Assembly: GCA_030673825.1 (NCBI GenBank)
Contig: JAUTCS010000159.1
Location: 1-64,000 of the forward strand
From: Verrucomicrobiota bacterium JB024
Lineage (GTDB): Bacteria; Verrucomicrobiota; Verrucomicrobiia; Opitutales; Cerasicoccaceae
Reading direction: 5' to 3'
DNA: 64,000 nt
Shown one piece after another: positions 10,287 through 27,289 of this stretch. Numbering within the stretch: the stretch's first letter is position 1; each line of letters starts with the position of its first letter. The translations under genes were made by a program, and so were the position numbers. The notes under the pieces were generated by a model, which made no database searches, was not told the origin of the DNA, and saw nothing but the letters and a program-made list of their open reading frames with translations.

Positions 10287-10405
10287 GAACGGGCAGTCCA
10301 GACGGACGCTCAAGCTCCGCCTATGAATTTCCCTGTCCTGAGAGAGGAGTCATCGTCTTGGTGCTCTTGCGTTCGCCTGGACAAGCCTTGCCGTTGTTTC
10401 TTCTG

Positions 10406-11029: not shown

Positions 11030-11072
11030 GGATCGTCAGCCTACACGGAATAGAGAACAAATCAATTAAAAA

Positions 11073-11087
11073 GTTTATTCAATGAAG
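11073..11087 (-). promoter_or_regulatory. Candidate ROK operator, site 1
   Basis: GTTTATTCAATGAAG, centred on 11080, is 12 of 15 bases identical to the window consensus TTTCATTCAATGAAA. It lies 44 bp upstream of the small secreted protein gene (start 11029) in the divergent interval it shares with the symporter. Confidence 0.6.
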
Positions 11088-11160
11088 TAATGCGTTCGGT
11101 ATTCCAGTAAACTCCCTCCGAGTGTTGATCCTGCTCTCGCTCGCTTTTACCGCTTTTCCG

Positions 11161-11204
11161 TTGACAGTTTGTTTCTATGATGCGAAATATTCCATTCAAT
11201 GAAA
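11161..11204 (+). promoter_or_regulatory. Symporter promoter with ROK operator, site 2
   Basis: A consensus -35 TTGACA stands at 11161-11166. An AT-rich -10 candidate (AAATAT, 11185-11190) follows after 18 bp. TTCCATTCAATGAAA at 11190-11204 (14 of 15 match to the consensus) covers the expected start of transcription. That arrangement fits repression of the SSS symporter gene. Confidence 0.65.
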
Positions 11205-11286
11205 TAAAAAGGCTGGCCACATATCTCACCAAACCGGTGTCTTGCGGTTCGGGCTCATGTGTATTCAGTCGAAAGGAAACATTTTT

Positions 11287-13344
11287 ATGAATTTGCAGTG
11301 GATGGATTGGCTGATTGTCGGGGCCTTGCTGGCCTTCCTGATCGGCGTGGCGGTGCGCACGCACCTGCTGACGCGCAGTGTGGCCGACTTTCTCGCCGGT
11401 AACCGCTGCGCCGGGCGCTACCTGTTGACTATGGCCGACGGCATGGCCGGGCTGGGCGCCATCTCCATCGCGGCGAACTTCGAGAAGTTCTACGAGTCCG
11501 GCTTCTCAGGTGCGTGGTGGGAGCAGATACTCGCGCCGCTGGGGCTGATCCTCGCGCTGTCGGGCTTCGTCATCTACCGCTACCGAGAGACCCGCGCACT
11601 GACCATGGCACAGTTTTTCGAGATGCGCTACAGTCGGCGCTTTCGCGTGTTTTCCGGAATGCTGGCATTCTTCTCGGGCGTATTGAACTACGGGATCTTC
11701 CCCGCCGTGACGGCGCGCTTTCTGGTCTATTTTTGCGGGCTTCCGCAGAGCTATGAGGTGATGGGCTTTACCGTTCCCGGCATCGCCCCGGTGATGTTTT
11801 TGCTGCTGGCCGTGGCGCTGACGCTGACCCTCTCCGGCGGGCAGATCGCGGTCATGATCACGGACTTTTTCCAGGGGCAGATGGTGCAGATCACGATCCT
11901 GATCTGCTTCTTTGTACTGCTCTCGCGCATCAGTTGGCCGGAGTTGATCAGCGGCCTGCAAATGGCGCCCGAGCAGGCCTCGCGGATCAACCCGTTCAAG
12001 CAGGGCGACACGAAGGGCTTTAACCCGGCCTTCTTCGTCATGATCGCTGTGCTGAACGTGTACGGCTTCAAGGCCTGGCAGGGCTCCCAGGGCTACAACG
12101 CCGCCCCCAAGAGCCCGCACGAGGCGCGCATGGCGAACATCCTGGGCATGTTTCGGGCGCAGGTGCTCTTTCTGCTGTCGATGCTGTGCCCGCTGTTTGT
12201 GTTCGCCATGCTGCACCTGCAGGAGTTCTCGGTACAGGCGGACGCGGTGCAGAGCATCCTCTCGACCATCGACAGCCCGCAAATTCAAAGCCAGATGCGG
12301 GTGCCTGCGGGCCTCTCGCAGTTGCTGCCGCTCGGGGTGATGGGGCTCTTTGTCGCCATGATTATCTCCGCCGCCGTCTCCACGGACGACACCTACCTGC
12401 ACTCGTGGGGGTCGATCTTTATCCAGGACGTGGTCATGCCGCTGCGCAAGAAACCGCTCAGCCAGCGGGCGCACATGTGGCTGTTGCGCGGGGCGATCGT
12501 GGGCGTGGCGGCCTTTGCGTTTTTCTTCAGCCTGTTCTTCCCGCTCAATGAGTACATCTACATGTATTTCCAGATCACCGGGGCGATCTATCTCGGTGGC
12601 GCGGGGGCGGTTATCCTCGGTGGGCTTTACTGGAAACGCGGCTCGGTCGAGGGCGCGTGGGCCGCGATGATCATCGGCTCGGTGGTGGCGGTATCCGGCA
12701 TCGTGCTGCGCAACCTTATCTGGCCCTACCTGCTGCCGGACTGGAAGCTCGCTCACCCCGGCACGACCTGGCTGCAAGACCTGCCGGTTGCCTTTCCGCT
12801 CAATGGCGTGCAGATGTCGCTCATCGCGGCGGTGTCGGCGGCGCTGGCCTACGTGGTCTTTTCGCTGCTGTCGAAGCGGCCTCCCGTCAACATGGACAAG
12901 CTGTTGCATCGTGGCGCGTACGCGGTCGAGGCGGTGGGGCATCATCCCGAAGGGGCGGCGGACAACCCGGTGCGGGCGACCGACCCTATGCCGGTGGGCT
13001 GGCGTCAACGCGCCTACCGCGTGCTGGGCATCAACCGCGATTTCACGCGCGGCGACCGGTTCATCTACCTGTTCGCCACCTGCTTCGCGCTCTTCTGGTT
13101 TATCTGCTTCCTCGTCGGCTCGGCCATCGCGGTCACGAGCGGCATCTCCGATGAAAGCTGGATCCGTTGGTGGGGCTTCAAGGTCGTCATCACGATCATT
13201 GTCGCGCTGATCGCGACCGTCTGGTTCCTGATCGGCGGCTTTCGCGACCTCTTTGATTTCGTGCGCCACCTCAAGGGAATCCAGCGCGACGCCTCCGACG
13301 ACGGCACCGTCCGCGGCGACGAGCATTTACAGGAAAGCGATTGA
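11287..13344 (+). CDS. Sodium:solute symporter (SSS family)
   Basis: 685 aa. SSS transporters move sugars, amino acids or related solutes into the cell with Na+. About fourteen hydrophobic segments are visible, from MDWLIVGALLAFLIGVAV to the last near WWGFKVVITIIVALIATVWFLIGG. The ADFLAGNRCAG segment near the N-terminus and the QGYNAAPKSPHEA stretch are SSS-like. The start ATG 11287 has AAAGGAAA upstream; an in-frame earlier codon at 11242 is not needed. It is followed without a gap by the CBM9-like gene. Placement under the ROK operator beside GH20 suggests an amino-sugar or oligosaccharide cargo; this is inference. Confidence 0.9.
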   Translation: MNLQWMDWLIVGALLAFLIGVAVRTHLLTRSVADFLAGNRCAGRYLLTMADGMAGLGAISIAANFEKFYESGFSGAWWEQILAPLGLILALSGFVIYRYRETRALTMAQFFEMRYSRRFRVFSGMLAFFSGVLNYGIFPAVTARFLVYFCGLPQSYEVMGFTVPGIAPVMFLLLAVALTLTLSGGQIAVMITDFFQGQMVQITILICFFVLLSRISWPELISGLQMAPEQASRINPFKQGDTKGFNPAFFVMIAVLNVYGFKAWQGSQGYNAAPKSPHEARMANILGMFRAQVLFLLSMLCPLFVFAMLHLQEFSVQADAVQSILSTIDSPQIQSQMRVPAGLSQLLPLGVMGLFVAMIISAAVSTDDTYLHSWGSIFIQDVVMPLRKKPLSQRAHMWLLRGAIVGVAAFAFFFSLFFPLNEYIYMYFQITGAIYLGGAGAVILGGLYWKRGSVEGAWAAMIIGSVVAVSGIVLRNLIWPYLLPDWKLAHPGTTWLQDLPVAFPLNGVQMSLIAAVSAALAYVVFSLLSKRPPVNMDKLLHRGAYAVEAVGHHPEGAADNPVRATDPMPVGWRQRAYRVLGINRDFTRGDRFIYLFATCFALFWFICFLVGSAIAVTSGISDESWIRWWGFKVVITIIVALIATVWFLIGGFRDLFDFVRHLKGIQRDASDDGTVRGDEHLQESD

Positions 13345-13347
13345 GTG

Positions 13348-14133: not shown

Positions 14134-14143
14134 AACCCGCGAC

Positions 14144-15001
14144 CTATTGCGCCAAGTCGATGTAGAGCGCCTCAATGTCCTGCTGGAGACGTTGGACGTG
14201 CCCGGTGACGAGGGCGAGCGGGGAGAGGGTGTCATCCTCCAGTAGCGGTGTCAGGTCGAGGGCGTAGGTCACCTTGTCCTGCTCATCGACACTGTGTGCA
14301 TCGAAGAAGGTGGCGTTGGCCAGGCGGCGGCCCTCGACGGCGAGGTCGTAGCGCTTGCCGCCGGTGATCTGCGAGTCAAAGACGCCGTTGAGCGCGGCGG
14401 CGAGGTTAGGGTGCCGACCGACGGGGAGCACGGCCTTGTCGGCGTCGCGTACCCAGTCGAGCCCGCGCCAGACTTCGCAGCCGAGGAGCTTTTTCGGGCG
14501 CATCTCCTGCGGTAGCGAGCGGATGGCCGCCAGCACCGCGAGAAAGACCCCGATGTGGGTGGCGTGCTTGTCGGCGGGGTTGTGAGTATAAACGACCTCG
14601 GGCTGGGCGGCAGTGAGGATGGCCCGTAAATCCTCGATCACGCGGGCGCGGGGCGTGGCGGTTTTGACCGCCGAGCTCGGGTGGGCCAGCTGCGCGACAA
14701 AGCCATACTGCCCGATGACGGCGGCGGCCCGCTGCTCCTGCACGCGCACGGCCTTCATCTGCTCGTCGGTAAAATTCTCATACGCGCCGGTGCGGGCGCT
14801 CCCGGCCCCGTCCGTGCAGGTCACCGCGCCGAACCACCGATCCGTGCGCTGAAAGCACTCCAAAATGCCGTGCAGGGCCATGAACTCCAGGTCGTCCTGA
14901 TGCGCGCCGATGCCCAGGTGGGTGGTACGGGCGAGGGCGTCCTGCGCGGGCAGGGCGTCGGGGATAAACAGGTCGGCGTTGGCTTGGGAAAAGATGGGCA
15001 T
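14144..15001 (-). CDS. PIG-L family deacetylase
   Basis: About 285 aa from ATG 15001; the frame is open upstream but there it overlaps the preceding gene. PIG-L/LmbE zinc enzymes remove the acetyl group from N-acetylglucosamine-containing substrates, and bacterial members include diacetylchitobiose deacetylases. The metal site is GIGAHQDDLEF (H34, D36, D37, the AHPDD motif with Gln for Pro) and the later VVYTHNPADKHATH block supplies the second His pair. No signal peptide. It is last in the minus-strand operon NagB-PIG-L / ROK-like / PIG-L, 19 bp after the ROK-like stop. Confidence 0.88.
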   Translation of the reverse strand: MPIFSQANADLFIPDALPAQDALARTTHLGIGAHQDDLEFMALHGILECFQRTDRWFGAVTCTDGAGSARTGAYENFTDEQMKAVRVQEQRAAAVIGQYGFVAQLAHPSSAVKTATPRARVIEDLRAILTAAQPEVVYTHNPADKHATHIGVFLAVLAAIRSLPQEMRPKKLLGCEVWRGLDWVRDADKAVLPVGRHPNLAAALNGVFDSQITGGKRYDLAVEGRRLANATFFDAHSVDEQDKVTYALDLTPLLEDDTLSPLALVTGHVQRLQQDIEALYIDLAQ

Positions 15002-15020
15002 GGTACGGGTGGGTGGAAAT

Positions 15021-16391
15021 TTAAAGGCGGGGCAGGCTGGCGGCGGCGATGGCCTGCCCATGACGTTTCATCTGTTCGTCGGGCGTGTCGAGTTGGATTT
15101 TCGCGGCCAGCTCCGGGAACTCCTCGCGCAGGACCGTTTGTGCCTGATCGAGAATTATCCGGCCGCCCTCGCCGGAGCTGACGCGCCCCAGCAGCAGCAG
15201 GTGGGTGAAATCGTAAAAGTCCGAGAAGTGCGCCAGCGCATAGCCGAAGTACACGCCGATCGTTTGGTAAATGGCGGCAGCGCGTTCGTCGCCTTCGGCC
15301 ATGCGGGACTGGACGGCTTCGAGGCGCTCGGGCAGCGAGGCGCGTTCGTCCACGGTGAGGCCGGAAGCCGGGATCAGCCGGGCCACGGCCTGTTGGGAAA
15401 AGTACTGCACGCCGCAGCCGTGGTCGCCGCTCCACTCGTCGCTCGGGGCGTCGTCCCGGTAGTCCACCGGGACGAAGGCCAGCTCATTAAGCCACCCGGT
15501 GACCTCCCCCTGCGGATCGACGTACCCGGCGGCCAGGCTCGTGCCCATGGAGATGCCCAGGACGGCGTTGGCCTTGAGGGACATGGCCCCGGCCAGCGCG
15601 GTGACGTCCCCGTCGTTAGCCACGGCGAAGGGGACGCCGTCCCACTCCTGCTGAAGCTGGCGGAAGAGCCCCCGGATGCTGCGGTCAAAATCTTCCGGCG
15701 AAACCCCGCGAAAGAGCGAGCCGGCGCGGGGTTCGTTGTTAATATAGATCCCGGCGGCGCTGCCTCCGATGGCATCGACGCGGGGCAGCCAGGCGGCGGC
15801 GAGCTGGAGGCTGTCGCGGATGCCTTCGAGGTGGTAGGCGGGGTCGGACTGGAAGTACGGGTCCCACTTGACCTCCTCGGAGTACACGACCTCGCCGTCG
15901 ATGAGCGCGGCGCATTTACGGTCGCTGCCCCCCAGGTCGAAGCCGATGCGGCAGCCCTTCAGGTTGTGCTCGACGCTCAGGCCGGGAGCATGGGCGGCGC
16001 GGGGCTGCGGGCGGCCTTCGCCGATGCTCATCGCCTCCCCAAAGCAGGTCTTTCCGATAAAGTCATGATCGAACGCGCGCGCCCCCTCGGGGCGGTAGGC
16101 CAGCTTGAGCCGGGAGACGATCTCGCGGGCGCCCTGCACGCGGATGCGGCTGCCCCCCCGGGCCCAGAGCAGGGTCTTGACCAGCCGCTCGGCGTAACGC
16201 CAGTTGCGCTCGGTGTGCTCGGGCAGGTCCGGGAGCATCGGCGTCATGAAGGTCCACGTCTGCCCGTCGGGTCGGGCGAGCGTGAAATGGACGGTGCGCG
16301 AACCGGCGGTCCGGGCCGCGTCGGCGCGGTAGTCGCGGTTCCAGCGGGCTGCCGGTACGAAGTCCGGGTCCAGAGGCGGATGGTGCGGCAT
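15021..16391 (-). CDS. ROK-like sugar kinase with extra N-terminal domain
   Basis: About 456 aa from ATG 16391. The ROK/hexokinase fold begins only near residue 150 (CRIGFDLGGSDRKCAAL, the phosphate-1 motif with the usual Gly-Gly-Thr replaced by Gly-Gly-Ser). It continues through GGSAAGIYIN, FAVANDGDVTALAGA (catalytic-Asp segment, ANDGD) and ISMGTSLAAGYV. A short Gly/Cys piece (GDHGCGVQYF) stands where ROK kinases have their zinc site, so only part of that site is kept. The roughly 150-residue N-terminal extension has no family I recognise. Its neighbours suggest it phosphorylates an amino sugar. It lies 19 bp after NagB-PIG-L. Confidence 0.8.
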   Translation of the reverse strand: MPHHPPLDPDFVPAARWNRDYRADAARTAGSRTVHFTLARPDGQTWTFMTPMLPDLPEHTERNWRYAERLVKTLLWARGGSRIRVQGAREIVSRLKLAYRPEGARAFDHDFIGKTCFGEAMSIGEGRPQPRAAHAPGLSVEHNLKGCRIGFDLGGSDRKCAALIDGEVVYSEEVKWDPYFQSDPAYHLEGIRDSLQLAAAWLPRVDAIGGSAAGIYINNEPRAGSLFRGVSPEDFDRSIRGLFRQLQQEWDGVPFAVANDGDVTALAGAMSLKANAVLGISMGTSLAAGYVDPQGEVTGWLNELAFVPVDYRDDAPSDEWSGDHGCGVQYFSQQAVARLIPASGLTVDERASLPERLEAVQSRMAEGDERAAAIYQTIGVYFGYALAHFSDFYDFTHLLLLGRVSSGEGGRIILDQAQTVLREEFPELAAKIQLDTPDEQMKRHGQAIAAASLPRL

Positions 16392-16410
16392 CGGATTCTT
16401 TGGTAAAGGG

Positions 16411-18327
16411 TCAGCTCTGCGGGAGGTAGCGTTTGAAGCCCTCAATGGCCTCGTACTCGGGCAGGCCGAGCGCATCGTAGGTCTTCGCTGTGGCGCGGTT
16501 GAGTTCGCTGGCGAGGTTCCAGGAGTTTTCGCTCTGGCGGCTGATGCTCGGGGACTGGCTGCGCTGGGTCTGGTGCTGATAGATGCCCTGGATCTTAAAG
16601 GTCAGCTCGTCGGGTGAGAGCGGGACCGCCATGTCCAGCTCGTGGATTTCCCACTCGGCCCCGTGGCCACGGTAGAGCCAGATCCAGCACTCGCCCAGCC
16701 AGTCAGCCCCGGCACAGGCCTTCAGCGCCTCGCGTAGAATCTCGAAACACAGCGCCGGGACCGAGAGCGGGTCGTGGCCCAGACCGGTGGCGAAAATCTG
16801 GTGCGGGCGCACCTCGTTGAGCAGCTCGACCATGGCGGAAACGTCCTCGGCCTGCGGCTGGAAGCGGCGGTAGCGCCCCTTCTCGTAAAAGGGCAGGTCG
16901 AGGAAGCGTAGGCGATCGGGCTCCAGCTCCAGTAATCGGGCTGAGGAGCGGGCTTCGCCGCGCCGGATGAGCCCCTTGAGATGACGGATGTCGGGGGTGT
17001 CTTCGCCGAACGCGCCCTTGCCATCGAGTTGCTTTTCCACCGCGCGGGCGTGCTTGACTTCGTCGGCGTTGCGCATCGTCTCGCCCAGCTCGATGATCAG
17101 CTCGATGGAGCGGCGGGCGTCCGTGTCCGGGACGGCGAGGTTGCCCGAGGTCAGGTAGGCGAGGGTGACGTCGTTGCCCTGATTGGCCAGCCGGTGAATG
17201 GTCCCGCCGAGGCAGAAAACGTCGTCAGTCGGCTCGGGGCTGAGGACGAGGGCCCGTTTGGGGAAGGGGTTGGCCCGCTCGGGTCGGTGGCTGTCGTCGG
17301 CCTTGGGCTTGCCGCCGGGCCAGCCGGTGATGGTGTGCTGCGTGGTGTTAAAGATGTCGATGTTGAGCTTGTAGGCGGAGCCTTTCTCCGTCAGCAGGTC
17401 GGCCATGCCGTTCTCGGTGTAGTCCTCGTCGGTCAGCTTGAGCAGGGGCTTTTGCGTGATCCCGGCCAGCCAGACCATGGCCTTGCGGATCATGGCGGGG
17501 GTCCACTCCACCGGGCCGACCAGCCAGGGGTGGCGCAGGCGGGTCAGGTGGCAACCGGCGGCCTCGTCGATGCAGAACACGCACTCGCGGTGCAGTTGGA
17601 GGAAGCTCGCCGGAATGGCGGCGGAGGGCTCGCCCTCGACGGCCTGGGCGATGACCCCGGCCTTGGCCTCGCCCCAGCCGAGCAGAAAGACTTGGCGGGC
17701 GTCGAGGATGGTGCCCACGCCCATGGTGATGGCGTGGCGGGGCACATTCTCCTCGCCGAGGAAGTCGCGGGCGGCGTCGCGGCGGGTGAGGCTGTCGAGG
17801 GTGACGAGGCGGGTGCGGCTGTCGGGGCCGGAGCCCGGCTCGTTAAAGCCGATGTGCCCGGTGCGGCCGATGCCGAGGATCTGGATGTCGATGCCCCCGG
17901 CCTGGCGGATGGCGGACTCGTAGCTCTGGCACGAGGCAAAGACCTTGTCGCGCGGGGCGAGGCCGTCGGGCACGTGGGTGTTCTCCGGCTTCAGGTCCAC
18001 GTGGTCGAAGAGCTGGTCCTGCATGAAGCGGCGGTAGCTCTCGGGGTGGCTGCCGGAAAGGCCGTAGTACTCGTCGAGGTTGAAGGTGATGACGTTCGCG
18101 AACGACAGTCCCTCCTCGCGGTGGCGGCGGATCAGCTCGCGGTACAGTCGCACCGGGGTCGAGCCGGTGGCCAGGCCGAGCACGGCGGGCTTGCCCTCGG
18201 CGGTACGCTGGCGGATCAGCGCCGTGATCGCGTCCGCGACGAACGTGCACGCGCCCTCGGCAGACGCATAAATCTGGGTCTGTATCTTCTCGCGCTGCGA
18301 CAGCTCGCTGATCTCTGTTTTCTTCAT
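16411..18327 (-). CDS. Glucosamine-6-P deaminase fused to PIG-L domain
   Basis: 638 aa. Residues 1 to about 285 are NagB-like (LGLATGSTP, FNLDEYYGL, LGIGRTGHIGFNEPGS), the deaminase that turns glucosamine-6-phosphate into fructose-6-phosphate and ammonia. Residues about 355-600 are a PIG-L-like domain. The same two-domain protein is known from Bacteroides-type genomes. Here the PIG-L motif is SPEPTDD (363-369) instead of SPHPDDD: Glu replaces the zinc His and Thr the first Asp, so this half is probably inactive. It heads a three-gene operon and diverges from an AraC regulator 74 bp away. A second, stand-alone NagB lies at 21213-21995. Confidence 0.88.
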   Translation of the reverse strand: MKKTEISELSQREKIQTQIYASAEGACTFVADAITALIRQRTAEGKPAVLGLATGSTPVRLYRELIRRHREEGLSFANVITFNLDEYYGLSGSHPESYRRFMQDQLFDHVDLKPENTHVPDGLAPRDKVFASCQSYESAIRQAGGIDIQILGIGRTGHIGFNEPGSGPDSRTRLVTLDSLTRRDAARDFLGEENVPRHAITMGVGTILDARQVFLLGWGEAKAGVIAQAVEGEPSAAIPASFLQLHRECVFCIDEAAGCHLTRLRHPWLVGPVEWTPAMIRKAMVWLAGITQKPLLKLTDEDYTENGMADLLTEKGSAYKLNIDIFNTTQHTITGWPGGKPKADDSHRPERANPFPKRALVLSPEPTDDVFCLGGTIHRLANQGNDVTLAYLTSGNLAVPDTDARRSIELIIELGETMRNADEVKHARAVEKQLDGKGAFGEDTPDIRHLKGLIRRGEARSSARLLELEPDRLRFLDLPFYEKGRYRRFQPQAEDVSAMVELLNEVRPHQIFATGLGHDPLSVPALCFEILREALKACAGADWLGECWIWLYRGHGAEWEIHELDMAVPLSPDELTFKIQGIYQHQTQRSQSPSISRQSENSWNLASELNRATAKTYDALGLPEYEAIEGFKRYLPQS

Positions 18328-18401
18328 GGTACCAGTATAGCAAATCTTTTAGGGTTTATGATTGCTGATTTCGGCGGAAAAATTGATTATTTCGGAAGTC
18401 G

Positions 18402-19241: not shown

Positions 19242-19341
19242 CGGCCACCCTCGCCGGAGTGGCGGGGATGCTTGCTGTTGCAGGTGGAGAGTCGTTGGTT
19301 GGGCCAAGTGGGTTCCCACTGCGCGGGACCGCGCTCGGGCC

Positions 19342-20088
19342 TTAACGGTCGGCAATGACGTTGGCGTAGGTGACGGTGCCTTTTTCCATCAGGTCGGCAT
19401 GGCCGTCCACGAAGGCCACCGGCGCGAAGCCGCGGGCACGGTAGCGGAGCGCCCCGCCCACACCATCCACGTCGGAGTTGGTCGGGATAAGGGCGTCGAG
19501 ACTTTCCGTGCTGTTCGCGCGACGGAAGGCCGTGGGATTGGAAAAGCTGGCGTTGGCGTAGGTGCTGTTCGTTCGCTGGGTGCTTTCACCGACGAGGATG
19601 ATCTCGGCCGGACGCTGAATCATGGACTGGCGCATGGGCACGGCTCCACTGCTGGAGTCTGGGCAGATCAGCCCGTGCAGCGAGTAGGTGGAGGGAATGT
19701 AGCCCGCGTTGTAGTTGCCGTCCCTGACGGGGATTTCGGCCAGCGGGGAAACGAAGATGTTCCGGGAGCTTTCGCCAGAGGCGGTTTTCTGCTCCATGTA
19801 CGGCGAGAGCAGGACCACCCAGTTACGTTCGCCCTGACCGGGCTGGTAAAAGTAGCTGATCGGGTAGAGCCCGCCGTGCTCGGAGGCGTAGAGATTCAGT
19901 GCGGTGGCAATCTGCCGCAGGTTGCTGACAGAAGTGGATTCGCGGGCCGACTGGCGCACATAGTTGACCGCGGGGACCAGGATTGCGCAGAGGATCCCGA
20001 TGACCGCAATCACCGTCAGCAGCTCGATCAGACTGAACGCACCGGCTGCGCGCTTCCGGTGGCCGGGCTCTGCTGGGTGTCGGTTCAT
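19342..20088 (-). CDS. Type II-secretion-like prepilin
   Basis: About 248 aa from ATG 20088; upstream codons overlap the nagA end. It has a short basic leader, then G-AFSLIELLTVIAVIGILCAILVPAV, the class III prepilin cleavage site and hydrophobic helix, then a Ser/Thr-rich body with NLRQIATALNLYASEHGGLYP and an end FVDGHADLME. The FVDGHA end is typical of the DUF1559-like prepilins abundant in Planctomycetes and Verrucomicrobia. No pilus assembly gene is in the window, so this is an orphan. Its place between an AraC gene and nagA is unexplained. Confidence 0.88.
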   Translation of the reverse strand: MNRHPAEPGHRKRAAGAFSLIELLTVIAVIGILCAILVPAVNYVRQSARESTSVSNLRQIATALNLYASEHGGLYPISYFYQPGQGERNWVVLLSPYMEQKTASGESSRNIFVSPLAEIPVRDGNYNAGYIPSTYSLHGLICPDSSSGAVPMRQSMIQRPAEIILVGESTQRTNSTYANASFSNPTAFRRANSTESLDALIPTNSDVDGVGGALRYRARGFAPVAFVDGHADLMEKGTVTYANVIADR

Positions 20089-20215
20089 CTTGCCGGAAAG
20101 TATACTACGATGGGTGGTGCTTGGGGAAGCGTTAACCGCAAAAGCGCCCGCTGTCCAATCTGTGCCTTCGATTTTAGTCCCTGTCATTGTCTTCATCGCC
20201 ATTTTACCTTTTAGG

Positions 20216-21193
20216 TTAATTTTTGGTTGGTCGGGCAGTTTGAGGGGGCTTGGCAAGTAAGGGGGCGCTGATGCCGAGAACTTCCCGCACGCGGGAGCCG
20301 AGGGTCGCTGTGGCGGCGGTATGGGTGTAGCCCAGGTGGCGGGTCAGGTTGTCCACGGCCTCGTCGGGGCAGAGGGAGGAGCCGGCCAGTCCACCGCCAT
20401 CGGGCTGACGGGCGATGCCGTCGGCGCCCACGTGGACGCGCAGTTCGCCCAGCGTATAGTCCCCAGGAGGGGCGCCGGCAGCCGCCATGCAGTCGGTGGT
20501 GAAAATCACCTGTTCGGGTGGCTTGGCCCGGAGGAAGTTCTTCAGTATGTGAAAAGGAATGTGAATGCCGTCAGGAATGAAGCAGGCCGTCAGCTCGTCA
20601 CGGGAAAGCAGCCGCTGGATGATATTGTCATGGCGGGGCAGGTTCAGCGGGACGCCGTTGCCCAGATGGGTGCACAGCGTGGCCCCGGCTTCGATTGCCT
20701 GATCGATGTCGGTATGGCTGGCATTCGTGTGTCCCAAGCTGATGACTACATTCATATCGACGAGATCCCGGATCGCCGCTGCGGAGCCTTGGCGCTCGGG
20801 CGCGAGCGTCATCAGACGCAATTGACCATCCGCCGCCTCCACAAGCCGTAAGATGTCTTTCGGCGTCGGGTCGCGCGTCTCTTTAGCAGGATGCGCGCCA
20901 CAGTAGCCGGGCAGATGGCTGATAAAAGGGCCCTCCAGGTGGTAACCGGCGATGGTTTCCGCGATCAGGGGGGAAGCCTGGCGCCAGGCTTCGATTTTTT
21001 CGAGCTGGCGGCAGAGCTGAGTCACGGGAGCCGTGATCAGCGTCAGTAGGATGCCGCCAACCCGGCGTCGGCGAAGTTGTTCACAGGCGAACTCCAGCGC
21101 GGACTGGTTCAGGCACGGGCTCTGGAAATCGATGCCCGCAAAGCCGTTTACCTGCAGGTCGAAGAGCGGAGAGTCGTGCCGGAAATAGTCCAT
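20216..21193 (-). CDS. nagA: N-acetylglucosamine-6-phosphate deacetylase
   Basis: 325 aa. NagA removes acetate from GlcNAc-6-P, giving GlcN-6-P for NagB. Metal-binding blocks are visible: YHLEGPFISHLPGYCGAHP (first Glu), VISLGHTNAS (His), CTHLGN (His) and VIFTTDCMAAAG (catalytic Asp). It begins directly at the VNGFAGIDF segment, so it is about 50 residues shorter than the usual 380 aa and lacks most of the N-terminal small domain. No better start is available upstream: the nagB gene ends 19 bp before it. It is downstream of nagB on the minus strand. Confidence 0.92.
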   Translation of the reverse strand: MDYFRHDSPLFDLQVNGFAGIDFQSPCLNQSALEFACEQLRRRRVGGILLTLITAPVTQLCRQLEKIEAWRQASPLIAETIAGYHLEGPFISHLPGYCGAHPAKETRDPTPKDILRLVEAADGQLRLMTLAPERQGSAAAIRDLVDMNVVISLGHTNASHTDIDQAIEAGATLCTHLGNGVPLNLPRHDNIIQRLLSRDELTACFIPDGIHIPFHILKNFLRAKPPEQVIFTTDCMAAAGAPPGDYTLGELRVHVGADGIARQPDGGGLAGSSLCPDEAVDNLTRHLGYTHTAATATLGSRVREVLGISAPLLAKPPQTARPTKN

Positions 21194-21212
21194 GGTCGTT
21201 ACGGGGGGAGGC

Positions 21213-21995
21213 TCAGGATGCGACCGTGTCCAGAAGGTAGGCCGCGTCGGGGTCGAGAAAAAGTCGGGCGGAGGGGTGGGTGCGCAGGATGGTGGCCGGG
21301 CACGCGGGGCTGATCGAGCCCAGCAGGGTCTCGCGGACAGCGGCGGCCTTGAGTTTGCCGGGGACGACGCAGGAGACGTGCTTACAATTAAAGAGGGTGG
21401 GGACAGTCAGGGTGAGCGCGTGCGTGGGCACTTCGTCGAGGGTGGGGAAGCAGCCGTCGTTGACCTGCTGCACGCGGCACTCCCGGTCGAGCTCGGCGGG
21501 TTTGATCGTCAAGGGGTCCTCAAAGTCCGCCACGCCCGGATCGTTAAAGGCGATATGGCCGTTTTCGCCGATGCCCATGCAGACGAGGTCCACGGGGGCC
21601 TCTTTCAGGAGCGCCGTGTAGCGTACGCATTCCTGCGGGATGGACGGGGCGTTCCCGCCGATGGCGTGAAACGCGCGCACGTGGACATGGCGCAGCAGGT
21701 GCTCCTGCAGGTAGTAGCGGAAGCTCTGGGGCTGGTCCGCGGAGAGCCCGATGTATTCGTCCATGTGAAAGACGGTAACGCGCTGCCAGTCCACGGCGTC
21801 CTTCTGCGCGACCAAGGCGCGCAGGAAATCGTCCTGAGAGGGCGCACAGGCGAAGATGACCCGCGCGTGCCCTTGCCGGGCGAGGGTGTCGTTGAGGGTG
21901 GCCAGCACGTGGCTGGCGGCTGCCTCGCCCTGGGTTGGGCGGTCGGCGGCGGTGTGGACCTTTAACCGGTCGAAAGTGGAGTCGTTGACTGACAT
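21213..21995 (-). CDS. nagB: Glucosamine-6-phosphate deaminase
   Basis: 260 aa, the normal stand-alone length. It isomerises and deaminates GlcN-6-P to Fru-6-P. Active-site segments: FHMDEYIGL (general base Asp), MGIGENGHIAFNDPG (His, and Glu of the catalytic triad) and the DRECR.Q...GCF block. The cell thus has two NagB copies, this one paired with nagA and the other fused to a PIG-L-like domain. It lies 35 bp downstream of the second GH20 gene, so the order GH20 - nagB - nagA forms one operon. Confidence 0.93.
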   Translation of the reverse strand: MSVNDSTFDRLKVHTAADRPTQGEAAASHVLATLNDTLARQGHARVIFACAPSQDDFLRALVAQKDAVDWQRVTVFHMDEYIGLSADQPQSFRYYLQEHLLRHVHVRAFHAIGGNAPSIPQECVRYTALLKEAPVDLVCMGIGENGHIAFNDPGVADFEDPLTIKPAELDRECRVQQVNDGCFPTLDEVPTHALTLTVPTLFNCKHVSCVVPGKLKAAAVRETLLGSISPACPATILRTHPSARLFLDPDAAYLLDTVAS

Positions 21996-22030
21996 AGTGA
22001 TGGTGGTTAGTTGAAAATCGTTGGTTACAT

Positions 22031-23482
22031 TTAGCGCAGACTCAGGGCGGGGGCCTCAGGACTGGCTGCCTGTTTGCGCAGGCTGTTGCGAAAGTTGATC
22101 AGGAGGTACTCATTGATCTCCCAGGGGAAAACCGGCCTGTATTTGCGCGGGTCGTCCGGGAAGCGTTCCTGATCCCACACCCGCTCCAGCCACTCCAGCC
22201 ACTGGCGGCCCTCGGCGGTGAGTGCTTCCCCGGTCTCGGCGTTCGCCTCTCTGGCGGCCAAGTGGGCCGAGCGCCGGTAGAGGTACGCCATCCAGCCCGT
22301 GAACCGGCAAAGCGTGTCGTAGGCGCGGTGCTCGCGGCGAACGAGGTCCACCGAGTCTTGCAGGGTCTTGTAAATCTCGCTCCAGGCTGTTGCGCGTTCC
22401 GTGAGGTGCGCGGCGTCAAGTTCCTCGGGGGAGCCCTTGAGGATGCCCAGATACTCCTGGCGCTGCGGGGCGATGTACGAGCACCGGCACAGGGCCCGAA
22501 GCAGCGCCGAAGAGGGGACGATCCCGTGGAAGTCCTGCATGTGACGGGCCAATGACTGCGCGAGCGTCAGGCCATTTCCGGTCATGGCGTCGGCGGCCAC
22601 GCGCAGCGAGGGCCAGAGGCAGTCGTGCAGGTAGCGCATGGGCGTCCACACCGTGGTGAGCGCGCCGAGGACTTTTCCGGCTCCGCGCAGGCTCTGGTAC
22701 GAGCTCATGCGTGCGATGTTAGGCAGCGCGAAGTCGCCCGGGTAGGCCTGCTGATCGTAGGTGACGAGCCCCGGGCATAGCAGCACGCCGAAGCCCTTGT
22801 CGAGCACTGCTTGTGCGAGCGCGTCCGACACACCCGGTGTGTATTGCCAGACCGCGATGACGATGTCCTTGGGCAGATGATCGAGGAGTCCCGTGTCGTA
22901 ACTGGGCTGATCGACCCACATGATCATTTTCCGGCCGAGCCGCTTGATCTCATCGTAGATGAAGCGCGTGTACTCCGCGAATATCTCCACCTCGCTGCGG
23001 GTACGGAGGGCCTCCGCCGTCAGCGGGTGCCCGCCGAAGTGCACCTCGTCGAGTCCGGCGTGGATATACTCCGAGGGGAAAATTTCCGCGACATCGCGCA
23101 GGAGCTTTCTCATTAGGGCCCGGGTCTCCGGGTGGACGGGGCAGATCGCGGTAAAGTCGTGATCGTTCTCCAGCAGATGCCGGTACTGCGGGTGGCGCGT
23201 CAGGTAGCGTGAGTGCCCGAGCGTTTCCAGCTCAGGGATGAGCGTAATCCCCTGCGCCTGTGCGTAGTCGATCAGCTCCCGCATCTCGTCCGGCGAGTAG
23301 GCGTTCGGGTCACCGACCCGGGGGGCGCTGGGGAAATCCAGCGTGCAGCCCTGGTCGTCCGTGAAGTGCCAAAGCAGCGTGTTCATCCCGCTCTGCGCGC
23401 TGAAGCGTATCAGGCGTTTGTAGTAGTCCCGGTTTTCCAGACACCGGGCACTGTCGATCATAAATCCGTGTATCTTGCTCAT
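22031..23482 (-). CDS. GH20-type beta-N-acetylhexosaminidase, signal-less
   Basis: 483 aa from ATG 23482. The long open frame upstream of it contains a regulatory palindrome and is non-coding. The first residues (MSKIHGFMIDSARC) enter the barrel directly, so the usual N-terminal GH20b domain and signal peptide are missing. TDDQGCTLDFPSAPRVG and YIHAGLDEVHFGG carry the signature; D145/E146 are the predicted catalytic pair. Predicted cytoplasmic. It heads the GH20-nagB-nagA operon and is divergent from the ROK repressor gene. A ROK operator sits about 141 bp upstream. Activity on chitooligosaccharides or N-glycan fragments fits the context. Confidence 0.87.
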   Translation of the reverse strand: MSKIHGFMIDSARCLENRDYYKRLIRFSAQSGMNTLLWHFTDDQGCTLDFPSAPRVGDPNAYSPDEMRELIDYAQAQGITLIPELETLGHSRYLTRHPQYRHLLENDHDFTAICPVHPETRALMRKLLRDVAEIFPSEYIHAGLDEVHFGGHPLTAEALRTRSEVEIFAEYTRFIYDEIKRLGRKMIMWVDQPSYDTGLLDHLPKDIVIAVWQYTPGVSDALAQAVLDKGFGVLLCPGLVTYDQQAYPGDFALPNIARMSSYQSLRGAGKVLGALTTVWTPMRYLHDCLWPSLRVAADAMTGNGLTLAQSLARHMQDFHGIVPSSALLRALCRCSYIAPQRQEYLGILKGSPEELDAAHLTERATAWSEIYKTLQDSVDLVRREHRAYDTLCRFTGWMAYLYRRSAHLAAREANAETGEALTAEGRQWLEWLERVWDQERFPDDPRKYRPVFPWEINEYLLINFRNSLRKQAASPEAPALSLR

Positions 23483-23622
23483 GCTTGCGGTCGGGGGAAA
23501 GTTCCTCCCGGCAGGTGGTGTGAAGGTCTTCGCGGGCGGAGTTCTACCGCCCAGGACCGTCACGCCGATTAGCTTTACGGCTCTTATTGATAAGCGGATG
23601 TGCGCGGGGGTCAAGGTAAATG

Positions 23623-23637
23623 TTTCATTCAATGAAT
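23623..23637. promoter_or_regulatory. Candidate ROK operator, site 3
   Basis: TTTCATTCAATGAAT (14 of 15 to consensus) lies between the divergent GH20 and ROK repressor genes, 132-155 bp from each start. It could therefore control both, including autorepression. A 12-nt perfect palindrome CACGGGCCCGTG stands next to it at 23645-23656. Confidence 0.65.
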
Positions 23638-23768
23638 TTATGTCCACGGGCCCGTGCGCATGAATATCCGCGCAGGGATTGGGAGTGATGGGAGCGGAAT
23701 GGTTTGTTGTTCCTCTGGCTGAACTATTAGTCTTGCCCACCGGAAGCGTTCCCCAAAGAACAGGGGGT

Positions 23769-24929
23769 ATGCATTCTTCAGAAAGTATGTTGGGGGGGAT
23801 GAAGCCGACCCCGAAGGGCAAGGCTGGGGCTGGCTTTGAAAAGCCGAAAAACAACCGCAAGCAGGCACAGATCGCCAACCGGCTGCGGGTGTTGCGCCTG
23901 ATCTACTCCCGCCGGCAGTACTCGCAGCGCCTCATCGTCCGCGAGACACAGATGCAGGCCTCGACCATTTCCAACATCGTATCCGAGCTGATCAGCTCCG
24001 GCCTCGTGGTCGAGGGCGAGGCGCGCGAGAGCAGCCGCGTGGGGCCCAAGGAAACGATCCTGCACATCAATCCGCGCGCGGCCTACGCGGTCGGGATCAA
24101 CTTCCACACCTTCGCGCACGAGATCTGTATCTTTGACGGCGACGGGACACTGATCGCCGAAGAGGTTTACGAGAAGGAGTGGAGTAACCGGACGCTGGGA
24201 CAGCTGCCCCGGCAGATCGAGTCCGTGGCCCGCCGGGCCGGGCTGACGATGCCTCAGATCAACGGGGTAGGGGTATCCATCCCCGGTATCGTCAACCCTG
24301 ATGAGGGCATGGTCATCCTCTCCCGCGCCCTTAAGCTGGAGAACTACCCGATCCGCGACGTTTTGCAGGAGAAGCTTAATCTCCCCGTCTTCGTGGACCG
24401 CAATGTGAATTTCGGCACCTACTATGAGCAGTATATGAATCCCGATGAGTACTGGGACAACTCCGGTTACCTGTTGGTCAAGCTCAACTCCATGCCGCAT
24501 CTGAAGTCGCCCTTTTCGCTGGGCTTGGGTATCAACGTCAACGGCGAGATCTACCGCGGGGCGAACGACGCGGCAGGCGAGCTCGACGCCGTGCTCATCC
24601 CGCCCGATTTGGAAGAGGTCGGCCAGCGTGGCGGCGTCGATACCGTTGTTTTCTTCTCCCGGCTGGGCCATCTGCTCGCCTCGGCGATCAACCTGCTCGA
24701 CATCGGCCATCTCGTCATCGCCTCCGATCAGGTGTCGATGGAGCGCGAGCATTTCGAGGTCCTGGAATCATCGCTCAGTCAGTCGTTGATCCCTATCACC
24801 GAGCGCCGGTTCAGCATCCGCTTCGCTCGGAACGGTCTGGCCGATCTTTCCAAGGGCACCGCCCTGTGGGTCCTGCATGCGTGCCTGGAGTCGGCGCTGG
24901 GCGGCCATATTCTCAGCGCGAGTAAGTAG
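23769..24929 (+). CDS. ROK-family repressor (NagC/XylR type)
   Basis: About 386 aa from ATG 23769, which follows AACAGGGGG; ATG 23787 or 23799 are possible. The N-terminal winged helix-turn-helix is at about residues 30-95 (LRVLRLIYSRRQYSQRLIV...STISNIVSELISSGLV). The ROK domain follows: AVGINFHTFAHEICIF replaces the kinase phosphate motif DxGGT, so it is a sugar sensor, not an enzyme. GVGVSIPGIVN, FVDRNVNFGTYYEQ and the late GINVNGEIYRGANDAAGELD are ROK landmarks. The zinc motif CxCGxxGC is absent. It is flanked by five matching palindromes in the region, so it is the likely regulator. GlcNAc-6-P is a plausible effector, as for E. coli NagC. Confidence 0.9.
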   Translation: MHSSESMLGGMKPTPKGKAGAGFEKPKNNRKQAQIANRLRVLRLIYSRRQYSQRLIVRETQMQASTISNIVSELISSGLVVEGEARESSRVGPKETILHINPRAAYAVGINFHTFAHEICIFDGDGTLIAEEVYEKEWSNRTLGQLPRQIESVARRAGLTMPQINGVGVSIPGIVNPDEGMVILSRALKLENYPIRDVLQEKLNLPVFVDRNVNFGTYYEQYMNPDEYWDNSGYLLVKLNSMPHLKSPFSLGLGINVNGEIYRGANDAAGELDAVLIPPDLEEVGQRGGVDTVVFFSRLGHLLASAINLLDIGHLVIASDQVSMEREHFEVLESSLSQSLIPITERRFSIRFARNGLADLSKGTALWVLHACLESALGGHILSASK

Positions 24930-24979
24930 CTACACGACAGGCGCTTTCGCCTTACTCCGCTAAATTTTTGCAAAAAACG

Positions 24980-25019
24980 TTGACGGATTTGCTGAAAACA
25001 AATAATTCATTAAATGAAA
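24980..25019 (+). promoter_or_regulatory. Promoter with ROK operator, site 4
   Basis: A -35 TTGACG (24980-24985) and a 17-bp spacer lead to a weak -10 TAATTC (25003-25008). ATTCATTAAATGAAA (25005-25019, 13 of 15 to consensus) overlaps that -10. It is 52 bp upstream of the PEP-CTERM-tailed protein gene. This geometry fits direct repression. Confidence 0.65.
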
Positions 25020-25070
25020 TAAAAGACTCTCTCTCACCAACGGACTCAAATCACTCAAAAACACAAAGAC

Positions 25071-25772
25071 ATGAACAAGGTAATATTATGTACGCTATTC
25101 GCGGTCGTGGCCGCTTCCGGGAACCTGTTCTCTGACGTTACGATCGATAATTTTGACAGCTATACGACCTCGGCGGAACTGCAGACCTACTGGAACTCCT
25201 TCGGCGCGGCCAGCGCGGGCCTTCCCGCTCTGAACGTCGGTGGAGGCGTGGGCGGCACGAATGCCGCGCGTTATGGTCTGGTCTGGAGCGCGGGTAACAA
25301 CGCCAATATGCGGATGTTCAATGTCCCCTCCGGCGTGCAGGATCTGAGTGCGGCCACCTCGGTTGAAGTGACTCTGTATATCGTCACTCGCGATGGCTTC
25401 AGTGCCCCCACCGATCCCACGGCACTTAAACTCGTGATCCAGGGCGGGGCCAATGACTCCATCTGGCAGACGACCGATGCCGCCGCTGTCAGCCTGAGTA
25501 ATACGAGTTATTCCACGGTGGGCTTTACGCTCAACACGACCGACATGGAGCGCGTTGGCGGTAGCGATTCGCTGACCGATACCCTGGCCGCCATTACGTC
25601 CATCCGCCTGCGCTTTGAGAATGCGGTCGAGAGCAATGTGATTCAGGATGCCTATATCGATTCGATCGTCGCCGTGACGGTTCCAGAGGCCGAACACTAC
25701 GCTTCCTTCGCGGCGATTGGTGTGCTCCTGATTACGATGGTTTACCGTCGGCGCGGCTGTCGTCAGGGATAA
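25071..25772 (+). CDS. PEP-CTERM-like secreted protein, paralogue of 10406-11029
   Basis: 233 aa: signal peptide (about 1-20), then a jelly-roll-like domain starting VTIDNFDSY and ending RLRFEN...DAYIDSIVAV, then a tail VPEAEHYASFAAIGVLLIT with basic MVYRRRG. That tail has the order of PEP-CTERM sorting signals: a Pro-Glu motif, a single hydrophobic helix, then arginines. The tail is the only clear difference from its paralogue at 10406-11029. Carbohydrate binding is suggested by fold pattern only. Its ROK operator ties it to the amino-sugar genes. No exosortase gene is in this window. Confidence 0.75.
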   Translation: MNKVILCTLFAVVAASGNLFSDVTIDNFDSYTTSAELQTYWNSFGAASAGLPALNVGGGVGGTNAARYGLVWSAGNNANMRMFNVPSGVQDLSAATSVEVTLYIVTRDGFSAPTDPTALKLVIQGGANDSIWQTTDAAAVSLSNTSYSTVGFTLNTTDMERVGGSDSLTDTLAAITSIRLRFENAVESNVIQDAYIDSIVAVTVPEAEHYASFAAIGVLLITMVYRRRGCRQG

Positions 25773-25858
25773 CCTCCGTGCTCTCGTCTTTGCACATTTC
25801 CAAGGCTGCCTGAGGGCGGTTGCATCGCCAAACAAATCCAGTTATGTTTATTTCTCTG

Positions 25859-26914
25859 ATGTTATCAGGAGTGAGAGTTAGGTTAACCCGGTGGCAACCC
25901 GCGCGCAGCCTGCGCGTGTGGTTGGCTGCCGCTGCGTTGACTTTGCCCCTGTACGCCCGCGGCTCGGATGCGAATGCCTGTTGCGCTGCGCAAATGCCCC
26001 AGTCGGAGCAGCAGTCGGGCTCATTGATCGCCCCCGGCGCCAAGCTGGGCATGTGGGTCTGGCACGCGCAACCGGTGTATGACGCCGGGGCGCGGGCCGA
26101 CCTGATCAGCTTCTGCCAGCGCTTCGGGATTAACCGCCTGTTCGTTCAGGTGCGCCTCAACAAGGAGGGTGGAGCTTACCAGATGGAGAATCCGCAGGCG
26201 TGGGCGGCGTTTCTGGCGCAGGCCCACGAGGCGGGTATTCAGGTGGAGGCGCTCGACGGGGCCGGAGACATGGGCTTCGCGAACAACCGTGCCGACACCC
26301 TGGCCAAGCTCGACGCGGTCCTGGCCTTTCAGGATTCGCTCCCGGCGGGGGAGGGCTTTTCCGGGCTGCATTACGACATCGAGCCCTATGTTACCGGTCG
26401 CTGGAAGACCGGCGACAAGCAGCAGGTCGCACTCGAACTGCTGGAGACGATGCAGGATATTTGCCAAAAGGTGGAGGACGCCGATCCGGACCTTACCATC
26501 ACCCACGACATTCCCTTCTGGTACAGCGGTCGGGATGAGCTGGCGGTGGAGTTCGACGGCGAGACCAAGTACCTCGACGAGCACATTCAGGATCTGGCCG
26601 ATGGCGTCGGCATCATGTCCTACCGCACGAAAATGACCGGGGGCAATTCGGTGGTCGCCATTACAGAGGAAGAGATGGCCTATGCCCGTCTGACGGGCGG
26701 GAGCGTCTATCTTTCGCTGGAGACGGTGCCGCTGGCTGAGACACCCACCATCACCTTTCACGGGCGCGATGGCGCGGAGCTGATCGCCGCTGTTCAGGAG
26801 CTGAACGCGACGCTTCAGGGCGATCCAGCCTTCGGCGGGATCAACTTGCACTGCTACCGTACCTTGCGCCCGATGCTTGAGCCGGTGAAGCCCACCGACT
26901 TGGCCACCAATTAA
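25859..26914 (+). CDS. Secreted putative TIM-barrel hydrolase, unknown family
   Basis: About 351 aa from ATG 25859; starts at 25820 (TTG) or 25844 are possible. It has a basic, then hydrophobic N-terminus (RVWLAAAALTLPLYA) and then a region with TIM-barrel spacing: GMWVWHAQPVYD, NRLFVQVRLNKEGG, GIQVEALDG, GLHYDIEPY, LTITHDIPFWY, GIMSYRTK, VYLSLETVP, GINLHCYRTL. HYDIEP resembles the acidic strand-4 motif of sugar hydrolases, and HDIPFWY and the SLETVP Glu are candidate active-site elements. I cannot name a CAZy family. It sits between the PEP-CTERM-tailed protein and the pseudopilin-like gene and could be read from the same operator-controlled promoter. Confidence 0.7.
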   Translation: MLSGVRVRLTRWQPARSLRVWLAAAALTLPLYARGSDANACCAAQMPQSEQQSGSLIAPGAKLGMWVWHAQPVYDAGARADLISFCQRFGINRLFVQVRLNKEGGAYQMENPQAWAAFLAQAHEAGIQVEALDGAGDMGFANNRADTLAKLDAVLAFQDSLPAGEGFSGLHYDIEPYVTGRWKTGDKQQVALELLETMQDICQKVEDADPDLTITHDIPFWYSGRDELAVEFDGETKYLDEHIQDLADGVGIMSYRTKMTGGNSVVAITEEEMAYARLTGGSVYLSLETVPLAETPTITFHGRDGAELIAAVQELNATLQGDPAFGGINLHCYRTLRPMLEPVKPTDLATN

Positions 26915-26925
26915 GTCCGTCTTCC

Positions 26926-26965
26926 CCGTTTGCCTGGGCGCCGTTTCTGGCGCTCAGGCAAACGG
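26926..26965. repeat. 17-bp stem-loop after the TIM-barrel gene
   Basis: CCGTTTGCCTGGGCGCC (26926-26942) pairs with 26949-26965 across a 6-base loop, with one G-T wobble. It lies 12 bp after the stop codon, where a terminator would be, but there is no T tail on either strand. It may stabilise the mRNA end or terminate weakly. Confidence 0.6.
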
Positions 26966-27289
26966 AAACCTCTCTCACAAAAACATCTACAGCGCGCTTG
27001 CGAAGGGCATTACCTAGCGCTGTCAGGAGCGCGTTTTCTACCTGGTTATCCACCCCGATTTTCTCTCCTCGCCCCCCCGGCCTCAACCCCTAATCATCAA
27101 GCCAGTGGAACAACGAGAGGCGATGCCTCCCCGGTCCCGGCGCGATTCTGCAAGGGGCGGTCTGCCCGCCACTTCAATGGTACCGCCGCCCCTTTGACCA
27201 TAGCCGTCAAATAATTATACTCACACATTGATCTGAAAGAAGTGGCATGACGGGTGCTTGATTGTTTCATTCAATAAAATAATTGAGTG
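26966..27289. other. Gene-free leader before the pseudopilin-like gene
   Basis: No credible gene is seen. The stretch holds the promoter at 27194-27221 and operator site 5 at 27265-27279 (see next entry); the rest is unremarkable GC-rich sequence. Confidence 0.6.
27194..27279 (+). promoter_or_regulatory. Promoter and ROK operator, site 5
   Basis: A -35 TTGACC (27194-27199), 16 bp and a -10 TATACT (27216-27221) give a good sigma-70-like promoter. TTTCATTCAATAAAA (27265-27279, 14 of 15 to consensus) then lies just 8-11 bp before the start codon, about 40 bp downstream of the likely transcription start. Repression here would act as a roadblock, unlike sites 2 and 4. Confidence 0.6.

Follow-up and report, generated by a model that had tools for sequence, protein, structure and literature searches.

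In Escherichia coli, the nag genes are targets of NagC, whose motif differs from the operator word considered here. The Thermotoga maritima ROK protein ChiR is encoded in the locus it controls, where a transporter and a hydrolase serve chitobiose use along with nagAB; chitobiose abolishes DNA binding by ChiR (PMC3750489). The Bifidobacterium ROK protein NagR has palindromic operators, 10 of 11 of which overlap a −10 or −35 box; nagAB are among its targets, its regulon is confined to a single locus in some lineages, and its effectors in vitro are GlcNAc and phosphorylated derivatives (PMC9599254). For XylR, a ROK protein of Paenibacillus and Bacillus, the operator GTTT-N7-AAAC has been described within a predicted 25-bp site, with the ROK gene divergent from its target (PMC9104551).

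Here we describe five predicted operators in a 64-kb stretch of DNA (the window) that quite probably form a one-cluster repressor regulon for GlcNAc or chitin-type sugars, under a ROK protein whose gene adjoins the third. Among the papers searched, no title or abstract opening described a ROK or other regulon for this Verrucomicrobiota family, and the operator word, in six spellings, appeared in no apparent operator study. The kind of circuit is ordinary and known; the operator word and a shortened sensor are its new details. A preliminary description of this DNA had proposed a coherent regulon tied to ROK, and that proposal is well supported: the word is scarce elsewhere, it is conserved in orthologous promoters, and ROK, sites and targets occur together.

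Predicted operator copies in the window and its genome

At up to three mismatches, the 15-bp word TTTCATTCAATGAAA occurs at five places in the window and at no further place there. The five copies carry 3, 1, 1, 2 and 1 mismatches, bearing out the 12–14 matching bases of 15 previously given for them, and the nine strand-wise matches compare with 0.37 expected from shuffles, the largest shuffle count being two. Operator 1 (11069–11091, core 11073–11087), with a weak core and a good flank, lies before sec1 (10406–11029, minus strand), a gene for a secreted CBM-like protein. Operator 2 (11186–11208, core 11190–11204), with TTGACA 23 nt upstream, precedes the gene for an SSF sodium:solute symporter (11284–13344, plus strand; Pfam SSF), which has 84–86% identical orthologues in two relatives, G002 and G005. 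Operator 3 (23619–23641, core 23623–23637) lies between the ROK gene (23769–24929, plus strand) and the divergent genes for a GH20 hexosaminidase (22031–23482, minus strand; Pfam Glyco_hydro_20, start inferred from the orthologue alignment), nagB (21213–21995, minus strand) and nagA (20216–21193, minus strand), the last two named as in the preliminary description. Operator 4 (25001–25023, core 25005–25019), with TTGACG 19 nt upstream, precedes sec2 (25071–25772, plus strand), which encodes a PEP-CTERM-type CBM-like protein, and Operator 5 (27261–27283, core 27265–27279) stands immediately before a pseudopilin-like gene (27287–30385, plus strand). With sensible gene starts, all five sites fall in promoter intervals and none in a coding region, as had been claimed, but mechanically called open reading frames (ORFs) do cross 11073, 11190 and 23623.

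A scan of the whole 4.6-Mb genome, earlier suggested as a check, gave no random genome-wide spread. At up to one mismatch, TTTCATTNAATGAAA has four places in this genome, all of them within the window (11190, 23623, 25005 and 27265), and its reversed control has none. Nine more places appear at two mismatches; when their neighbours were read by eye, none preceded a gene of the regulon's kind, and most lay inside ORFs. At up to three mismatches there are 90 forward matches against 49 for the reversed control, and the site at 11073, with three mismatches to TTTCATTNAATGAAA, is on its own within background. That site ranks only with the AT flanks included in the pattern. The resulting 23-bp pattern WWTANTTYATTNAATRAANTAWW, to which Operator 4 has no mismatch, is found at up to two mismatches at exactly five places in the genome, namely the five sites (control 0); having been designed from the sites themselves, it is a refinement and no independent test, and this own-genome result is partly circular.

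The word and the cluster in relatives

Of the 54 genomes searched for the ROK protein, its own among them, 15 gave a match at E ≤ 0.001, mostly a weak one. Clear orthologues, 49–69% identical by BLASTP and 47–67% over the alignment, are found in G002 and G003 of the same genus and in G005, G008 and G009 of the same family. G003 and G005 are Verrucomicrobiia MAGs, G008 is Cerasicoccus frondis NBRC 105381 and G009 is Cerasicoccus maritimus NBRC 105382, a genus placed by the NCBI taxonomy in Puniceicoccales, Cerasicoccaceae. Four genomes of the same family (G001, G004, G006 and G007) have no ROK orthologue, G004 showing only a 4.9e-6 match. Among 286 genomes of the class, a set that did not list G005, C. 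frondis or C. maritimus, a ROK match at E ≤ 1e-40 was obtained in five (G000, G002, G003, G062 and G104); of these, G062 and G104 alone come from other families, and G002 additionally has a ROK paralogue.

The 15-mer was fixed before the relatives' genomes were seen. At up to one mismatch, 11 of its 14 places in the five ROK carriers are in the ROK cluster (1 of 3 in G002, 2 of 2 in G003, 2 of 2 in G005, 3 of 4 in C. frondis and 3 of 3 in C. maritimus); of the remaining three, two are on paralogous G002 contigs and one is in C. frondis. The four non-carriers hold six places in all (three in G004 and one in each of the others), none of which, on reading the neighbours, is at the promoter of a regulon-gene orthologue. 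Three of four perfect palindromes are in clusters, and the fourth lies inside a gene of the ROK-less G004. The nine off-cluster places adjoin or hit ribosomal-protein genes, gene interiors, unrelated genes and the two paralogous G002 contigs. Two come near pilin-like sequences, neither of them at an orthologue's promoter: in G006 the word falls within a pilin-like ORF that is 27% similar to the window pseudopilin, near a 23% SSF relative, and in C. frondis it directly follows a pilin-like gene (51%, over no more than 47 residues). We also read by eye the neighbours of the 7 off-cluster WWTANTTYATTNAATRAANTAWW places and, for a looser 13-mer, of 5 of the 17 off-cluster places (those in ROK carriers) plus 2 of the 12 in ROK-less genomes. 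Off-cluster places were inside genes, by ribosomal-protein or paralogous repeat genes, or before genes not linked to the regulon; two, at two mismatches, adjoin IclR-type (G001) and MarR-type (C. maritimus) genes. The paralogous G002 contigs, C47 and C49 (L060:666-680 and L061:5091-5105), encode STAWG-type repeat proteins with the same TTTCAATCAATGAAA word on the 3′ side, and the pair is either a recent duplication or an assembly split.

Comparison of orthologous promoters, also suggested at the outset, found the word before the same genes in the five ROK-carrying relatives. A site precedes the sec1 orthologue in 5 of 5 (the G002 copy with three mismatches), and Operator 3 is kept at the GH20/ROK interval in G002, G003 and G005 and at the ROK/PilX interval in both Cerasicoccus genomes, where a perfect 15-bp palindrome also stands before the orthologue of the Operator 5 gene. 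The GH20 site of C. maritimus has three mismatches.

Fetched cluster stretches contained 34 matches at up to three mismatches, and the 23 before homologues of window genes were used to derive a motif; the 11 dropped were G000 56539 and 90105, G002 60447 and 60451, G008 60028 and 62482, G009 2994 and 14633, G005 105447 and 129082, and G003 26319. In the resulting motif, WWWTAnTTCATTnAATGAAnTAWWW, symmetry extends across roughly 25 bp. The outermost T and A of the original 15-bp word are poorly conserved (0.42 bits only at the first and last positions) and the palindrome runs outward, the next four bases holding 1.0–1.3 bits. Across the 23 sites the spacing TTTC-N7-GAAA places 4-bp half-sites 7 bp apart, the ROK-operator geometry as given for XylR. 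In ten genomes, WWTANTTYATTNAATRAANTAWW at up to two mismatches has 27 places against 0 for the reversed control, with 20 of the 27 in ROK clusters, and at up to one mismatch 17 of 17 are in clusters. The looser 13-mer TTCAYTNARTGAA, at zero mismatches, separates less cleanly, with 32 places (control 4), 15 in clusters and 8 in the ROK-less G004. One AGTGAA half is present in each of the four G002 operators, as against 1 of 19 elsewhere (hypergeometric 5.6e-4, with sites treated as independent). We count this common half-site change, such as might arise in operator–regulator co-evolution, in favour of ROK as the binder.

We tabulated 30 gene-facing sides and dropped one, G005 114281 '+' (labelled SSF), because the G005 SSF gene is on the minus strand behind sec2. 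TTGAC stands 16–23 nt before the 15-mer at 14 of 23 non-ROK gene sides (2 of 5 in the window, 12 of 18 in relatives), where chance, given how often TTGAC occurs in these stretches, would yield about 0.15, orthologous sides not being independent. With a 17-nt spacer, the −10 box lands on the operator or its AT flank. The earlier claim that sites 2 and 4 overlap a likely −10 or start agrees with the palindrome's place over the −10/start region wherever a TTGAC box is present, and this arrangement favours repression by occlusion. Operator 3 had been taken to serve both GH20-nagB-nagA and the ROK gene itself. Autoregulation of ROK gains no support here: TTGAC stands in the 16–23-nt range at 0 of 6 ROK-facing sides of this shared site.

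Among ORFs of at least 90 aa, all six clusters share ROK, two sec paralogues, two GH20 proteins, a protein with a HYDIEP motif and a DUF1559 pseudopilin, and ROK is the sole DNA-binding family common to them; a further ORF group, in five genomes, is antisense to GH20 and spurious. The second GH20 family hexosaminidase is encoded behind sec1 (8268–10313, minus strand; Pfam Glyco_hydro_20 and Glyco_H_20C_C). The DUF1559 pseudopilin-like gene (19342–20256, minus strand; Pfam SBP_bac_10/DUF1559), with a homologue in 6 of 6 clusters, follows nagA. Behind sec2, the 364-aa HYDIEP protein (25820–26914, plus strand), conserved in 6 of 6 clusters, has no Pfam family and gave a weak PDB profile match to 10yv, a putative glycoside hydrolase (E 7e-4); it is possibly an undescribed enzyme. 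The Operator 5 gene encodes a large prepilin-type protein of 1032 aa, PilX/GspK-like by eye and without a Pfam family, for which Verru_Chthon cassette protein A was rejected (TIGR02600, 14.2 bits against a cut-off of 332.3); a gene for a 241-aa protein with a signal peptide by eye follows (30387–31112, plus strand). These last two, nagB and nagA were matched in the Cerasicoccus stretches only, with none in the fetched stretches of G002, G003 and G005; in both Cerasicoccus genomes the PilX-like protein has orthologues, the 241-aa protein has 32–36% homologues in the same place, and the nagB (61% identical) and nagA (61–62%) orthologues keep the same order.

Gene order varies around the operators. 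In Cerasicoccus, a single operator heads PilX-241aa-GH20-nagB-nagA and another precedes GH20; in the window, PilX and GH20-nagBA are split, with one operator each. The gene for the HYDIEP protein stands behind sec1 in four relatives and behind sec2 in G002 and the window; the SSF gene, with an operator to itself in the window and G002, comes after sec2 in G005. Genes that changed operon remain behind an operator.

At E ≤ 1e-5, sec genes number exactly two in each of the six ROK carriers and none in the four non-carriers. The sec1 product has a signal peptide by eye and lacks a PEP-CTERM tail; its paralogue sec2 has a PEP-CTERM-type tail with a weak NCBIfam PEP-CTERM match (19.1 bits, cut-off 65). 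Aligned by eye, a (V/I)PE-hydrophobic-Arg tail is present in 6 of 6 sec2-type and 0 of 6 sec1-type proteins, and Pfam PEP-CTERM at E ≤ 0.1 is found in 4 of the 12 family members. The sec1 model (pLDDT 90) resembles the CBM11 β-sandwich (6r3m, Z 15.2 and 2.7 Å over 151 residues), but it matches just as well a chain of a complex I assembly factor (7zkq, Z 15.9), a mannanase module and further CBMs. By sequence, sec1 gave no family match to any CBM, and its profile found no PDB sequence. Because the complex I assembly factor chain scores as high as the CBMs, sugar binding by sec1 would be a guess.

Two other parts of the window carry related functions. At 14144–19241, a second amino-sugar set, divergent from an AraC-type regulator (by eye) and with no operator copy, includes a GlcN-6-P deaminase-like fusion (NCBIfam PRK02122, 834.6 bits), a PIG-L-like protein by eye and a sub-threshold ROK match; it is possibly a separate regulon. 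At 31138–34221, on the opposite strand and adjoining the pseudopilin gene pair, lies the gene for a 1027-aa protein with CBM9-like and GH42-like Pfam matches.

The ROK protein and its sensor

The putative repressor has 386 aa, with a helix–turn–helix (HTH) region followed by a shortened ROK domain. Pfam ROK (PF00480) matches with 52.9 bits (cut-off 22.9) over profile positions 11–157 of 294 only, and over 1–155 and 2–155 in two relatives. The N-terminal HTH reaches 23.4 bits for MarR_2, below the cut-off of 27, and aligns with Lmo0178, 2hoe, 4ija and 1z05; in the structure model its helices span residues 29–45, 53–60 and 64–76. Confidence in this model is moderate (pLDDT 73) and low over residues 1–27, 180–192 and 266–289; its first fold match is the operator-bound repressor Lmo0178 (5f7q). 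ROK kinases have a catalytic Asp. At that position all six ROK orthologues have Asn ([VI]DRNV), as does Lmo0178 (VDKNI), and we read the protein as a regulator, not a kinase. G104 has a distant ROK homologue with the palindrome TTGATTCGGTTTCCGAATCAA directly upstream (L070:1390-1410). This is the sole perfect copy in that genome and shares the TTC-N7-GAA spacing; as a single case it was not used as evidence. The other three distant loci with a readable ROK frame (L072, L022 and L032) have no palindrome upstream of ROK, and a fifth locus, L071, had no such frame.

A zinc site and the GH histidine of the sugar pocket are typical of ROK proteins, though not universal. In the window protein, GE.GH is replaced by AAGELDAV, the GH histidine is absent, and the stretch after GE contains no Cys. 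After the conserved GE there are about 28 residues fewer than in 2hoe, in one continuous alignment, and about 46 fewer than in Lmo0178, whose second segment scores only 2.4 bits. We take the shortened stretch to be the one that holds the zinc site in other ROK proteins. Judged by these alignments, the shortening is a clearer oddity than the loss of the histidine, which is not unique because 2hoe (GEIGY) and 4ija (GEIGK) also lack it.

Membership in NagC was rejected: the NCBIfam equivalog NF047937 is the best NCBIfam match yet reaches 69 bits against a cut-off of 650. Because the sensor domain is shortened and departs from NagC, GlcNAc-6-P should not be assumed to be the inducer. The regulon's symporter, moreover, is expected to import unphosphorylated sugar, which counts against release by GlcNAc-6-P.

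The regulon model and its alternatives

We propose that all five sites serve as operators for ROK, whose own gene is next to the third. A ROK dimer would bind the 25-bp palindrome and, at TTGAC promoters, where the palindrome covers the −10/transcription-start region, would block RNA polymerase. An amino sugar or chito-oligosaccharide, or a product of its uptake, may then bind the ROK domain, whereupon ROK would leave and the cluster would be expressed: two GH20 enzymes, nagBA, the sodium symporter, the secreted CBM-like pair (one PEP-CTERM), pseudopilin-like proteins and the conserved enzyme-like protein.

It is unlikely that the palindrome is instead the operator of another regulator, either an unlinked factor or the AraC-like protein at 18402–19241, with ROK merely a regulated neighbour. 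Binding by ROK is a prediction and the window cluster does include the AraC-type gene (by eye), but in the relatives' fetched stretches that protein has one match of only 29%, in 1 of 5, and was rejected as the binder, not being common to the six clusters. ROK, by contrast, is the only DNA-binding family present in 6 of 6, targets and sites are missing where ROK is absent, and the half-sites are spaced as in a ROK operator. A ROK protein acting from these sites as an activator, or in a dual mode, seems slightly less probable again: ROK proteins are known in both roles, but here the sites come after TTGAC boxes and fall on the −10/start region, much as in B. infantis, where the negative regulator NagR shows similar overlap at 10 of 11 operators (PMC9599254).

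We regard it as very improbable that the word is a promoter element, a special −10/start region with no protein to bind it. Such an element would sit where the word does, 16–23 nt downstream of TTGAC at 14 of 23 sides, but would not be expected to be a palindrome of about 25 bp whose centre is unconserved and whose 15-mer ends are weakly conserved, to occur also at sides lacking a TTGAC box, or to be concentrated in ROK clusters. Chance matches in AT-rich promoters might explain the site at 11073 taken alone; for the set, chance is negligible and is ruled out by the shuffle, reversed-pattern and genome-wide counts (nine strand-wise matches in the window against 0.37; 27 places in ten genomes against 0), and positions are conserved before orthologues across genomes. 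As read from the genomes compared, the regulon is real in a comparative sense and very probably driven by ROK.

A wider reading of the ROK regulon is more tentative, and we would lean somewhat against it, slightly more so since the missing histidine proved to be shared with other ROK regulators. A Cerasicoccaceae ROK repressor with a shortened sensor, probably sensing something other than GlcNAc-6-P (for example, an imported chito-oligosaccharide), might link GlcNAc catabolism to a cell-surface capture apparatus of free and PEP-CTERM CBM-like proteins, GH20 and pseudopilins, with ROK, operators and the CBM-like pair gained or lost as one module. For a Verrucomicrobiota family, the analysis offers an operator that can be tested and a predicted regulon that is complete. 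It also connects secreted and pseudopilin-like genes of blank function with amino-sugar use, and the shortened sensor raises the question of which inducer it can still hold.

Among described systems, E. coli NagC provides the best NCBIfam match, far below cut-off as given above. The nearest solved relative is Listeria Lmo0178 (5f7p, 5f7q and 5f7r; profile E 3e-23, Foldseek E 1e-20, TM 0.65), which differs in its 19% identity, its GEFGH and its longer following stretch. XylR has the same 15-bp half-site geometry (4-7-4), a 25-bp site and a divergent ROK gene, but other bases and xylose genes (PMC9104551). NagR shares palindromic, promoter-overlapping operators, nagAB targets and a single locus, but belongs to another phylum and has ABC transporters in its regulon (PMC9599254). 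ChiR, like the protein here, is a ROK regulator in its own locus with a hydrolase, a transporter and nagAB; it differs in having a chiEFG-type chitobiose transporter where this locus has a symporter, in having one confirmed site against five predicted here, and in that, in the part of the source used, no secreted CBM-like or pseudopilin genes are named for it (PMC3750489).
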